Source: Clostridiales bacterium
GTDB taxonomy: Bacteria; Bacillota; Clostridia; Peptostreptococcales; Anaerovoracaceae
Reading direction: 5' to 3'
Assembly: GCA_012841925.1 (NCBI GenBank)
Contig: DUTT01000021.1
Location: 1 to 64,000, forward strand
Length of the DNA: 64,000 nt
How positions within the stretch are numbered: position 1 is the stretch's first letter; the number at the start of each line of letters is the position of its first letter. Of the stretch, positions 32,184 through 36,185 are shown in pieces. The notes under the pieces were generated by a model. It worked only from the letters and a program-made list of their open reading frames with translations. It was not told where the DNA came from and made no database searches. The translations under genes were made by a program, and so were the position numbers.

Positions 32184-32444
32184 TCAAGTCCGCGGGCTCC
32201 CGGCTTTGCCGATGAGCGCCCATTTTTGCAATCTCGTCAGCTTCTTGACAGCCGCCTCCCTCGACAGCGCCTCCGAACGACCGGCGCAGGATTCCAGATA
32301 TACAATGGATAACGGGCCGCGGCCCTTCGTATATTTAGCGCCCCGACCCGCCCGGTGTGCCTCAAGCCGCTCGGACGGACGATCGCTGATACCGGTGTAC
32401 AGCGAGCCGTCGCCGCACAATAGAATATAGACGTACCACCCCAC
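32184..32444 (-). CDS. GIY-YIG domain protein (YhbQ/UPF0213 type)
   Basis: An 86-residue single-domain GIY-YIG protein. YVYILLCGDGSLYTGIS supplies the GIY and YIG-equivalent strands, and KYTKGRGPLSIVY follows. The GTG at 32444 has AGGTGA five bases upstream; a GTG at 32453 directly after the previous stop is less well placed. It is the last gene after the HydE-like operon and may simply be read through from it. The family is nuclease-like, possibly acting in DNA repair; its cellular role is not known. Confidence 0.8.
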   Translation of the reverse strand: MGWYVYILLCGDGSLYTGISDRPSERLEAHRAGRGAKYTKGRGPLSIVYLESCAGRSEALSREAAVKKLTRLQKWALIGKAGSPRT

Positions 32445-32453
32445 AGAAATCAC

Positions 32454-33452
32454 CTATGCATAATCCGGCCGGAATACGAGACTCATGCCAGACTTCTCTG
32501 CCATCGTTCTGATATGCTCCAGCCCCAGCGTAATCCGGTTGTCCACAACGCTGAAATTTTTCGCAAGAGCATCGGGCAGCATGTCGGCAAACAACATGTC
32601 GGCACCGGCTCCAAGCGCATCCAGGTTACCCTCGGGATCTGCCAGTCCCTTTTGGGAATCCTTGCCCGGCTGTTGCGCCGTAATCCGGATGCCGGGCATC
32701 ATGATGCGCAGTATCGAAATAACTTTCAGATTCAAATCCGTGCTGCCAGCACCGCCCTCGAGCGCCAGCGGCGTTCCTTTTGCCGGCATATAGGGAATGA
32801 CCGGTGCCCAGTGAATGCCCAGATCGCGCGTTAACAGGACATCTTCCGCCAGTTGATCGGCTGTCTGGCCCGGATAGTCCACAATGCTGCCGGATGCGAG
32901 CAAAAGGCCGCTTTCCTTCACCCACCCGATGCTGCGCATCCGTTCGTCGAAATCGCTCGACGGCTTGAGCCGGTTGAAGACCTCGCGCTGGGACATCTCG
33001 AACTTCAGCACGTATTCGCCTGCGCCAGCGGCCTTGAGCTCGCCGTACTGCACTTTCGCAAGCGCACCGAGCGCTAAACTGATAAAGAACCCGATTTCGC
33101 TGAGCGCCTCCACGATGGAGAGGATGCTGTCGAACTCGTATCCCGGGTCCTCGCCGGAAATAAGGAATATGCGTCGAAAACCCACCTCATACGACGTCTT
33201 CGCCGCCTGAATGACCTGCTGTGGATCCAATCGATAGCGTTTGACATCTTTGTTCGGCGCCCTCATACCGCAGTACAGGCAGTGGTTTTTACAGACATTG
33301 TCGAATCCGAGCATCGCCGTGGCGATGAGTGCATTGCGGTTGACATCCTGATGAATGCGCTTTGCTTCCGAAGCGATTGCCTGGAGGTATTCTTCCTGCG
33401 GCATGGAGAGAATCTCCAGCACTTCTTTTTTTGTCTGAATGTTCATGTTCAT
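32454..33452 (-). CDS. HydE-like radical SAM protein
   Basis: A 332-residue radical SAM enzyme of the BioB/HydE group. CKNHCLYCGMR near residues 54-64 is the CX3CX2C cluster motif followed by the HydE-like APNKDVKRYR. SGEDPGYEFDSI and IVDYPGQTADQLAEDVL align with HydE. Relative to HydE as I remember it, the SAM-contact segment reads YVLKFEMSQ in place of YLLRHETAN. The C-terminal second-cluster cysteines are absent. It is therefore a HydE relative, not clearly the maturase itself. It ends an operon with an ABC importer and a TM1266-like protein. The ATG follows GGAG at eight bases. Confidence 0.8.
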   Translation of the reverse strand: MNMNIQTKKEVLEILSMPQEEYLQAIASEAKRIHQDVNRNALIATAMLGFDNVCKNHCLYCGMRAPNKDVKRYRLDPQQVIQAAKTSYEVGFRRIFLISGEDPGYEFDSILSIVEALSEIGFFISLALGALAKVQYGELKAAGAGEYVLKFEMSQREVFNRLKPSSDFDERMRSIGWVKESGLLLASGSIVDYPGQTADQLAEDVLLTRDLGIHWAPVIPYMPAKGTPLALEGGAGSTDLNLKVISILRIMMPGIRITAQQPGKDSQKGLADPEGNLDALGAGADMLFADMLPDALAKNFSVVDNRITLGLEHIRTMAEKSGMSLVFRPDYA

Positions 33453-33456
33453 GTGT

Positions 33457-34044
33457 TCACTCCTCGCAACCCCTACTCAGCGTTATCAGCTCAGCTCCAA
33501 ACGCCGTCACTTCGTCCCGGTCATGCGTCACCATGATGACCGTCCGGCCGTTAAAATGTCTTTTGAGATAGCTCACAACGCTTTCTTTCGTCCGCTCGTC
33601 CAGTCCTTTGAGCGGTTCGTCGAGAAACAATACATCGCTCTGTGCCAATATGGCGCGCACAAGTGCCACGCGCCGCTTCATGCCGCCGCTGTATTCGCGC
33701 ACCGGCTTCAACCGGTCGTCCTGCAGCCCAATCTCGTCGAGATGCGTACGGATGAGCGCCCGGTCTGCATGCGCATCCAGCACCATGGCTACGTTGGTCT
33801 CCGCACTGAATTCTTCGCAGAGCCTGTCTTCCTGAAACACAGCGCTCTTTTTATCCGGCATGCCGGACACTGACCCGGAGTCCGGCTGAATCAGACCCAT
33901 CAGGATGTGGATGAGCGTCGTTTTCCCGCACCCGGAGGCGCCCATCACGCACGTGACCCCGCCTTTTCGGAATGTGGCAGAAAAACGGTCCAGCACTTTT
34001 TCCAGGCCGTAGCTCTTCGTCAATTCGGATGCGACGATATCCAT
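33457..34044 (-). CDS. NitT/TauT-type ABC transporter ATPase
   Basis: A 195-residue ATPase, short for the family (about 240-260). Walker A is GASGCGKTTL at residues 35-44. The signature YSGGMKRRVALVRA is followed by Walker B DVLFLDEPLKGLD and the switch histidine in VTHDRDE. The usual C-terminal extension is missing. It lies four bases from the HydE-like gene downstream and four bases from the permease gene upstream. It should power the importer formed with the permease and the lipoprotein. Confidence 0.85.
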   Translation of the reverse strand: MDIVASELTKSYGLEKVLDRFSATFRKGGVTCVMGASGCGKTTLIHILMGLIQPDSGSVSGMPDKKSAVFQEDRLCEEFSAETNVAMVLDAHADRALIRTHLDEIGLQDDRLKPVREYSGGMKRRVALVRAILAQSDVLFLDEPLKGLDERTKESVVSYLKRHFNGRTVIMVTHDRDEVTAFGAELITLSRGCEE

Positions 34045-34048
34045 ACCC

Positions 34049-34783
34049 TTACGACCTCTCCAAACGAATGTAAAATCGCTTTAACCCGCGCAAAAATATC
34101 TTTTCGAAGACGACGCTCACCAGCACGATGACCACCGTCCACGCAAATAAATCCGCAGAATTCAGATACACTTTTGCCTCGTACAGCTTTTCGCCGATGG
34201 AGCCGTCGGGTATTCCGATTACTTCGGCAGCGATTCCCGCCTTCCAGGACAGTCCGATCGATACGCTGCAGGCCGACATCAGATACGGTTTCAAATGCGG
34301 CAGATAAATGTATTTGAGCTTGCGAAACCAGTTGATGCCAAACACGGAAGCCATTTCCAGCAACTTGACATCGGTGCTCTGGATGCCCTGCAGCATGTTC
34401 GTATACACGATGGGCAAGACCATCAGAAAAGAAATGAACACCGACAGGCTGGACGAGCTGAGCCAGATGAGACACAGGATGATGAACGAGGCGACGGGCA
34501 CCGATTTAATCATCTGAATGTAGGGCCACAGCGCAACCTCCAGAAAGCGATGCCGCCCGCCGAGCACGGCGAGGATACAGCCAACCGCAAGCGCAGCAAA
34601 ATACCCTCCCGCAATCCGCAGAAAAGAAAAGGCAATCGCGTAAAGAAAATCCGCCTCGAACAGCAGCGTACCGAGCCGCCCTGCGACGGTCAGGGGCGTA
34701 ACCAGAAGTATGCTACGGTTCAGCATCATCGCCCCTGCCTGCCAGATACAGAGAGCCAGAAGAACGGCTCCCGTTTTTTCCAT
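34049..34783 (-). CDS. NitT/TauT-type ABC transporter permease
   Basis: About 244 residues with six predicted helices. VALWPYIQMIKSVPVASFII and the EAA-like loop LEMASVFGINWFRKLKYIYL are typical of SsuC/TauC permeases. The start is uncertain: ATG 34783 lies seven bases after the preceding stop and has a weak GAG site. ATG 34801 and ATG 34813 overlap the upstream gene and have no site. Translation is probably coupled to that gene. Confidence 0.82.
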   Translation of the reverse strand: MEKTGAVLLALCIWQAGAMMLNRSILLVTPLTVAGRLGTLLFEADFLYAIAFSFLRIAGGYFAALAVGCILAVLGGRHRFLEVALWPYIQMIKSVPVASFIILCLIWLSSSSLSVFISFLMVLPIVYTNMLQGIQSTDVKLLEMASVFGINWFRKLKYIYLPHLKPYLMSACSVSIGLSWKAGIAAEVIGIPDGSIGEKLYEAKVYLNSADLFAWTVVIVLVSVVFEKIFLRGLKRFYIRLERS

Positions 34784-34790
34784 CTTTGCT

Positions 34791-35771
34791 CTACGGGACA
34801 TAATAAAAGTCATCGGCCGGCATGGCGCCGCCTACGGCCTTGGGGTTCTGTTCGAACAGAACGCTGAGATAGCCATTCATGGGTTCAGTCATGTCCTCAC
34901 CGGCCACATAGGTGATGTAGCAATAGGGAATCGCCCGCTCAGCTACCTGGGCCTTGACGATATCGAACTTTTCGACGAGTTGTGCAGCTTCGCTGATATT
35001 GGCATTGACGTACTCGGTGGAGGCCTTATACTCATTCAAAAATGTGGCGATCTGCTTCGGGTACTGCCCGGCAAATTCCTTCCGGACGACGAGAACGCCT
35101 GTAATCAGCGTGCTGCCGTTATCGAGCACATCCCATTCCTCGGTAAAGTCCACGGCAACTCTCAGGTTGTCCAGCTGCATCTGAGCGACCGTCACGTACG
35201 GCTGAGGCATCATGGCGATTCCGCCGCTTGCCTGCAAAATGGCGACTGATTCCGAAGGTTCGCTCTTCCACTGAATGTCGACGTCCGCATCGGGGTCCAC
35301 ACCGTTCTCTTCCAGAAGATAGCGCAGCGCATACTCCGGCGTCGATCCTTTTCCGGTCGCATAGATCGTCTGGCCTTTCAGATCGGCCATCGAGTGGACA
35401 TCGTCCCCTGTTTCGACGATGTAGATGACGCCGAGCGTATTGATGGCCAGCAGCTGAATCTCTTTATCCGTATTGTTGTACATGACGGAAGCGAGATTCG
35501 CCGGAAGAGCCGCAATGTCCAGCTCCCCTTTGAGCAGCTTTGGCGTCAGCTCGTCGGCCGATCCCGCAATTTGAAACGTGTAGTGATTTGACGTTTCTCC
35601 CGCCTCTGCATCGTCCATCAGGCGAACCATTCCCATGGAGGTGGGGCCGCGGAGGCCTCCGATGCGGATCTCGACAGATTCGACGTCGCCCTGCGGCGGT
35701 GCGCCGGCACATCCGGCGAGCATGGAAACAAGCATGAGTGCCACGGTCAGCATAGCTAAGATTCTCTTCAT
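34791..35771 (-). CDS. NitT/TauT-type ABC substrate-binding lipoprotein
   Basis: A 326-residue lipoprotein. The leader peptide ends in LAGC, with C21 as the lipidated residue. The mature domain looks like a type II periplasmic binding protein of the NMT1/SsuA group: IRIGGLRGPTSMGMVRLMDD at the start, then LKGELDIAALPANLASVMYN and VRKEFAGQYPKQIATFLNEY. Its start overlaps the TM1266-like gene by four bases (ATGA). The solute is unknown; related proteins bind sulfonates, pyrimidine precursors, nitrate or small aromatic compounds. Confidence 0.85.
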   Translation of the reverse strand: MKRILAMLTVALMLVSMLAGCAGAPPQGDVESVEIRIGGLRGPTSMGMVRLMDDAEAGETSNHYTFQIAGSADELTPKLLKGELDIAALPANLASVMYNNTDKEIQLLAINTLGVIYIVETGDDVHSMADLKGQTIYATGKGSTPEYALRYLLEENGVDPDADVDIQWKSEPSESVAILQASGGIAMMPQPYVTVAQMQLDNLRVAVDFTEEWDVLDNGSTLITGVLVVRKEFAGQYPKQIATFLNEYKASTEYVNANISEAAQLVEKFDIVKAQVAERAIPYCYITYVAGEDMTEPMNGYLSVLFEQNPKAVGGAMPADDFYYVP

Positions 35772-36037
35772 TGTGCATCCTCTTTCTGATCTTCCAACTT
35801 CGATACGACGGTTTTTGTCCGGACGCCCGGAAGCATGCCCAGCTTCCCTGAAAGCGAGCTTGTAACGTCGCCCGGTGCATCCATAACCACACAGATGATG
35901 GAAACGCCGCGATCCTTATAGGGGATACCCATCCGGCCGACGATGTAGCTGCCGAACCGATGCAGAAGCTCGTTGACTGCTTCCGCCTGATGAGTGTCCT
36001 CCAGCAATATGCTGATGACTGATATCCGATTCTCCAC
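35768..36037 (-). CDS. TM1266-family putative iron-only hydrogenase system protein
   Basis: An 89-residue ACT/NikR-C-like small protein. ENRISVISILLEDT, LLHRFGSYIVGRMGIPYKDR and VSIICVVMDAPGDVTSSLSG match what I know as the TM1266 family, usually found beside [FeFe]-hydrogenase maturation genes. Start GTG 36037 has AAGGAG eight bases upstream; GTG 36046 overlaps that site. It is the first gene of the operon with an ABC importer and a HydE-like enzyme. A ligand-sensing regulatory role is proposed for the family but not demonstrated. Confidence 0.8.
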   Translation of the reverse strand: MENRISVISILLEDTHQAEAVNELLHRFGSYIVGRMGIPYKDRGVSIICVVMDAPGDVTSSLSGKLGMLPGVRTKTVVSKLEDQKEDAQ

Positions 36038-36052
36038 GACCGACACTCCTTA

Positions 36053-36185
36053 CAAACAAACGGCCGCGCATAAGGCGCGGCAGAACAAACATGTCTGTTT
36101 CCGTCACCTTTCCATCCGGGGCGTACCCAAATGCGTCAGGATCTCTTGACACCTGTATTATATAACGGGCACGACGGAAAAGCAA
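36053..36185 (-). promoter_or_regulatory. promoter and structured leader of the HydE-like/ABC operon
   Basis: On the minus strand TTGCTT (36180-36185) and TATAAT (36157-36162) are 17 bases apart. The leader of about 110 bases contains a AAACA/TGTTT hairpin at 36087-36100. It also contains a perfect 7-bp GC-rich hairpin (GCCGCGC/GCGCGGC, 36063-36081) followed on the RNA by the U-rich GTTTGTTTG, just before the ribosome binding site. This is terminator-like and could be a regulated attenuator. I do not recognise a known riboswitch. Confidence 0.5.

Follow-up and report, generated by a model that had tools for sequence, protein, structure and literature searches.

A TM1266-family gene, a NitT/TauT-type importer and a HydE-like radical SAM gene form one compact operon of five co-directional genes on the minus strand of the analysed 64,000-nucleotide stretch of DNA from a Clostridiales bacterium (hereafter the window), and the evidence leans towards this operon being an alternative, import-fed module for the maturation of the [FeFe]-hydrogenase H-cluster. 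The features that can be read from the sequence are the operon, its conservation, the predicted fold and active-site changes of the enzyme, the adjacency of hydF in relatives, a shared leader RNA, and the lack of a HydG, HydE or HydF match in the window's own genome. In the route that we infer, which extends to the reaction of the enzyme, its action on the H-cluster, the identity of the imported compound and the direction of the RNA control, the importer would take up a small molecule, possibly a cofactor precursor, and the HydE-like enzyme, with a cavity apparently rebuilt for a substrate other than that of HydE, would use it to make material for the [2Fe] subcluster. The enzyme would thereby replace HydE and bypass the need for HydG, HydF would complete maturation where present, and the leader RNA with its terminator, probably together with the TM1266 protein, would tune expression.

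In the established pathway, HydG makes an Fe(CO)2(CN)Cys unit, HydE processes it and HydF assembles the diiron unit, the three proteins being described as the maturases devoted to H-cluster assembly (PMC11736057). In vitro, HydE and HydG become dispensable when a synthetic diiron precursor is combined with HydF and parts of the glycine-cleavage system (PMC11736057), and in Clostridium thermocellum, which has three [FeFe]-hydrogenases, hydG was deleted to make all of them inactive (PMC4355364). A literature search for HydG-less maturation, or for importers linked to HydE-like enzymes, found nothing on point. If HydF, a distinct HydE relative and an importer do operate together without HydG, the CO/CN-bearing iron unit would be obtainable in another way.

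The operon begins with the TM1266-family gene (35768..36037, minus strand, as are all features below; start codon GTG with AAGGAG upstream), the product of which is a putative regulator that scored 106.1 bits against TIGR03959 (cutoff 60.8), exceeded the curated cutoff of PF21699 and is akin to the solved chain 2nzc. An ATGA overlap joins it to the gene of a lipoprotein-type, NMT1/SsuA-like solute-binding protein (34791..35771; PF12974/PF09084/PF13379), followed by an ABC permease (34049..34813; PF00528), an ABC ATPase (33457..34044; PF00005) and the HydE-like radical SAM enzyme (32454..33452). The coordinates and family matches thus bear out the five tightly packed genes with ATGA overlap described in the sequence-only reading. 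A GIY-YIG nuclease gene (32184-32453) begins directly past the radical SAM stop codon, and the genes further downstream vary among relatives. No HydF, HydG or HydA is encoded in the window, as had been stated, yet two catalytic-type [FeFe]-hydrogenases lie elsewhere in the same genome.

The radical SAM protein was best matched by the HydE model TIGR03956, at 176.8 bits against an equivalog cutoff of 254.6; its Evtepia ortholog reached 157.0 bits and canonical HydEs 324.7-413.1. Scores against the PylB model TIGR03910 (119.4 bits, cutoff 348.2) and the HmdB model TIGR03957 (71.9 bits, cutoff 320.9) were likewise below their cutoffs. In FastTree trees the window protein and its orthologs formed a monophyletic clade with support of 1.0, separate from a sister HydE clade (0.995) that includes the Thermotoga maritima enzyme, so that the enzyme does not fall inside canonical HydE, a placement that the earlier reading had named as refuting it; PylB and HmdB, absent from the tree, were compared by model scores and one structure comparison. 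The 59 entries of the new clade hold the window protein three times and therefore represent about 57 distinct sequences. Searches at family, order and class level returned orthologs at 50-73% identity, after which identity dropped to about 30-36% for canonical HydE. A Bradyrhizobium plasmid gene (L242:3764-4885) for a radical SAM protein related to HydE groups beside HydE.

The structure model of the enzyme (pLDDT 94.7) superposed on T. maritima HydE with a Z score of 43.6 and 1.8 A over 325 residues, and PylB was the second-best solved match (Z 36.7). The CX3CX2C cluster cysteines and the nearby Glu and Arg are retained in the new clade, while many columns that are invariant in 55/55 HydE sequences carry other, themselves conserved residues. 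These replaced columns presumably line the HydE substrate cavity, so that a reaction different from that of HydE, the adenosylation of the HydG product, is possible. The sequence-only reading had pointed to substitutions in the segment corresponding to RHETAN, which indeed reads KFEMSQ in the window protein, and to missing C-terminal cluster cysteines. The auxiliary-cluster cysteines are absent as claimed (0/59 in the new clade), but 27 of 55 HydE-clade sequences also lack the motif and only 28 possess it; their loss is therefore uninformative and was rejected as a distinguishing trait.

Scanning of named genomes revealed 59 ortholog loci, whose titles assign every one of them to Clostridia or unclassified Bacillota, with Evtepia gabavorous, Neobittarella massiliensis and Clostridium aestuarii among the hosts; some hosts are gut, rumen or sediment clostridia. 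On the same strand and within about 4.5 kb of the enzyme gene, the binding protein was found in 38 of 58 regions and the full importer in 28 of 58, the window included. A binding-protein homolog occurs in 50 of 52 host genomes, and where it is not adjacent to the enzyme gene, it mostly lies in its own binding protein-permease-ATPase cluster elsewhere in the genome. The enzyme-importer linkage, on which the earlier proposal depended, is thus conserved across many clostridial lineages. Loci that lack TM1266 have a gene for a Crp-type regulator ahead of the importer (L072:4807-5499 and 12 others), and in the Evtepia group the gene before that of the binding protein encodes a desulfoferrodoxin (L097:6386-6769 and relatives).

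The AlphaFold model of the binding protein has a pLDDT of 92.7, and its closest solved folds are 3hn0, SsuA, PqqT, CmpA, NrtA and the ThiY type, which bind widely differing ligands, the fold search giving no single ligand. No score of the binding protein or the permease against the named NitT/TauT-type transporter models reached its cutoff; the best NCBIfam match of the permease was SaoP, at 76.4 bits against a cutoff of 295.

Matches to the hydrogenase family PF02906 were present in 51 of the 52 enzyme-bearing genomes, the exception being host G880. The two hydrogenases of the window's own genome carry the ligand motifs TSCSPGW/SSCCPAW, MPCTAKK and GCPGGC/ACPGGC; near the second one lies a further H-domain protein, sensory-looking by eye (G000 C59:6992-7645). 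Neither this genome (89% complete) nor its two congeners (97% and 94%) gave a HydG or HydF match above cutoff, and no HydE match was detected in the own genome either. The suggested co-occurrence check with hydEFG over the 52 hosts gave HydG above cutoff in 6 and HydF in 24 (18 of the 46 HydG-less ones), with 28 hosts lacking both. Canonical HydE, detected as a cross-match to the HydG model, was confined to HydG-bearing hosts, the 46 HydG-less hosts showing no other such HydE-like cross-match; some enzyme hosts also possess HydE, HydF and HydG.

For comparison, a class sample of 246 genomes was surveyed, with strong matches to a hydrogenase in 210 genomes and to HydG in 161. HydG occurred in 6/52 enzyme hosts vs 143/208 hydrogenase-bearing sample genomes without the enzyme (p = 7e-14, uncorrected for relatedness). 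The remaining 65 of these 208 lack HydG, and 52 of the 65 also lack HydE and HydF; the other 13 have a HydE-like protein, and the 11 that have HydF all fall within these 13. In the samples compared, HydF without HydE was therefore seen only alongside the new enzyme: 18/46 HydG-less enzyme hosts vs 0/52 hydrogenase-bearing genomes without HydG, HydE and the enzyme (p = 1.4e-7). Because most of the 18 HydF-positive hosts sit in one branch of the enzyme tree, the p-values overstate independence and that of 1.4e-7 is optimistic. The argument that absence of HydE, HydF and HydG proves their replacement by the operon was rejected, since about a quarter of the sampled hydrogenase-bearing genomes without the enzyme (52/208) lack all three without having the operon, so maturase loss does not require it. 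The main hydrogenase genes of twelve inspected maturase-less, operon-less genomes (L247-L258) keep their ligand motifs. Several nearly complete genomes (G546, G620, G642, G682 and others) encode a HydE-like protein and HydF with no HydG match. Two further arrangements were observed in HydG-less genomes. At L220:7261-14445, an apparent operon with all genes in one direction comprises a pair of nitrogenase component-1-like genes, those of a FecB/FecCD-type importer, hydF and TM1266; at L214:2317-7249, TM1266, another such pair, hydF and hydE are consecutive.

At 12 loci, hydF lies directly 3' of the enzyme gene on the same strand, with gaps of -4 to 56 bases at 11 of them; the value of -179 at L096 arises from an open frame taken from the first start codon, which is probably too far upstream. 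The adjacent hydF genes encode intact P-loop (GTPase) and cluster-ligand CxH...HCxxC motifs, and only one of the 12 genomes (G897) has HydG. The combination of a HydE relative, HydF and an importer in HydG-less genomes fits an import-fed route.

Upstream of TM1266, a likely promoter with the -10 element TATAAT (36157..36162) was read from the leader, and a TATAAT-like box stands in the same place in most other aligned leaders. It is followed by a conserved leader RNA element (36085..36152) with the core CUGAC-hairpin-GAAAGG at 36139-36107, and by a terminator-like hairpin (36063..36081) between this element and TM1266. The hairpin came from a consensus scan that found 6 terminators vs 3.8 expected in the region, and a hairpin with a T-rich tail occupies the corresponding position in the other leaders; the leader pattern had an expectation of 0 in shuffles of the window. 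Fuzzy pattern scanning located the leader in front of the other importer operons headed by TM1266 and, at L010 and L011, upstream of TM1266-hydE. Searches against Rfam 15 were negative for the window stretch (E<=1) and for ten other loci (E<=0.5).

The covariance model was built from twelve sequences, including that of the window, which scored 65.7 bits; it recovered its training set and, at 67.8 bits, the held-out L053, which is closely related to the training sequence L052. Weaker matches ahead of TM1266-hydE were L015 (24.7 bits, E 3.5e-5) and L025 (20.1 bits, E 0.002), and a second batch of loci returned only L182, which was in training, and weak L177 and L221 (E 0.41). A looser descriptor, CUGAC-stem-GRAAGR plus terminator, added L019, L026, L161, L165 and L258, which rest on this pattern and on reading of the upstream sequence rather than on the model, and among the loci scanned it also matched four apparently unrelated sites (L045, L123, L126, L177). 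The membership of L258, where TM1266 stands beside a hydrogenase gene, is weak, since the pattern scan caught it and the covariance model did not. RNAalifold predicted 10 pairs, two of them with substitutions at both positions; stem comparisons picked by hand, a choice that carries no statistical test, showed compatible pairing, and the window leader, folded as a single strand, did not stand out (z -1.08). The leader with its terminator precedes both the present operon and its relatives headed by TM1266, as well as some canonical TM1266-hydE operons, and was not found in front of Crp-led or solitary enzyme copies. It may have a regulatory role, sensing a ligand or a protein.

The earlier proposal, in which a radical SAM enzyme works on an imported molecule and control is of the TM1266 type, is partly supported and remains the best reading; the adjacency of HydF, the shared leader RNA and the hydrogenases in 51/52 hosts now direct it towards [FeFe]-hydrogenase maturation. 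The same observations bear on the view that the enzyme, as a HydE paralog, produces or repairs another metabolite from the imported compound and has nothing to do with the H-cluster, with the TM1266 and hydF neighbourhood incidental or reflecting shared redox regulation. PylB and BioB share the fold and make other metabolites, the exchange of residues invariant in all 55 HydEs would suit such a change of function, the importer shares its fold with binding proteins for organic anions and vitamin precursors, and 28/52 hosts have neither HydF nor HydG. We nonetheless consider this view unlikely, given hydF directly 3' at 12 loci, a leader RNA common to canonical TM1266-hydE operons, and HydF without HydE seen only together with the new enzyme in the samples compared.

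An account judged just as doubtful holds that the enzyme is a diverged HydE acting on CO/CN-bearing iron from an undiscovered cellular source, the importer supplying an ordinary item such as iron, an amino acid or a sulfur compound. The close whole-length match to T. maritima HydE and the occurrence of HydE with HydF but without HydG in genomes with canonical HydE agree with it, while the near-constant company of importer and enzyme (50/52) and the replacement of HydE-invariant residues speak against it. In its boldest and unlikely version, the import-fed reading becomes a salvage route: other microbes would release an iron-carbonyl-cyanide precursor, which the importer would capture and the HydE-like enzyme ready for insertion; if true, hydrogenase activity would depend on a shared metal cofactor. 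The favoured import-fed module itself leaves unexplained the 28 HydF-less hosts and the maturase-less, operon-less genomes. Also weighing against it are the hosts that carry HydE, HydF and HydG in addition, the hydrogenase-less host G880, the exchanged HydE-invariant residues and the finding of the leader only ahead of TM1266-led operons.

Compared with known systems, the enzyme resembles HydE in its fold over the whole length, its CX3CX2C motif, the conserved Glu and Arg near the SAM site and its ties to TM1266 and hydF; it differs as a sister clade with sub-cutoff scores, clade-wide replacement of many HydE-invariant residues, a dedicated importer and hosts that mostly lack HydG. PylB shares the fold, but its score was below that of HydE in every comparison made. 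The TM1266 protein belongs to its family by both curated cutoffs, the regulatory role being only putative in the family description itself, and here its gene heads an importer operon. As in SsuABC, TauABC, NrtABC and ThiXYZ, a protein of the binding-protein fold is encoded with one permease and one ATPase gene, whereas the ligand is not assignable from sequence or fold and no named transporter of this NitT/TauT type was matched at cutoff.
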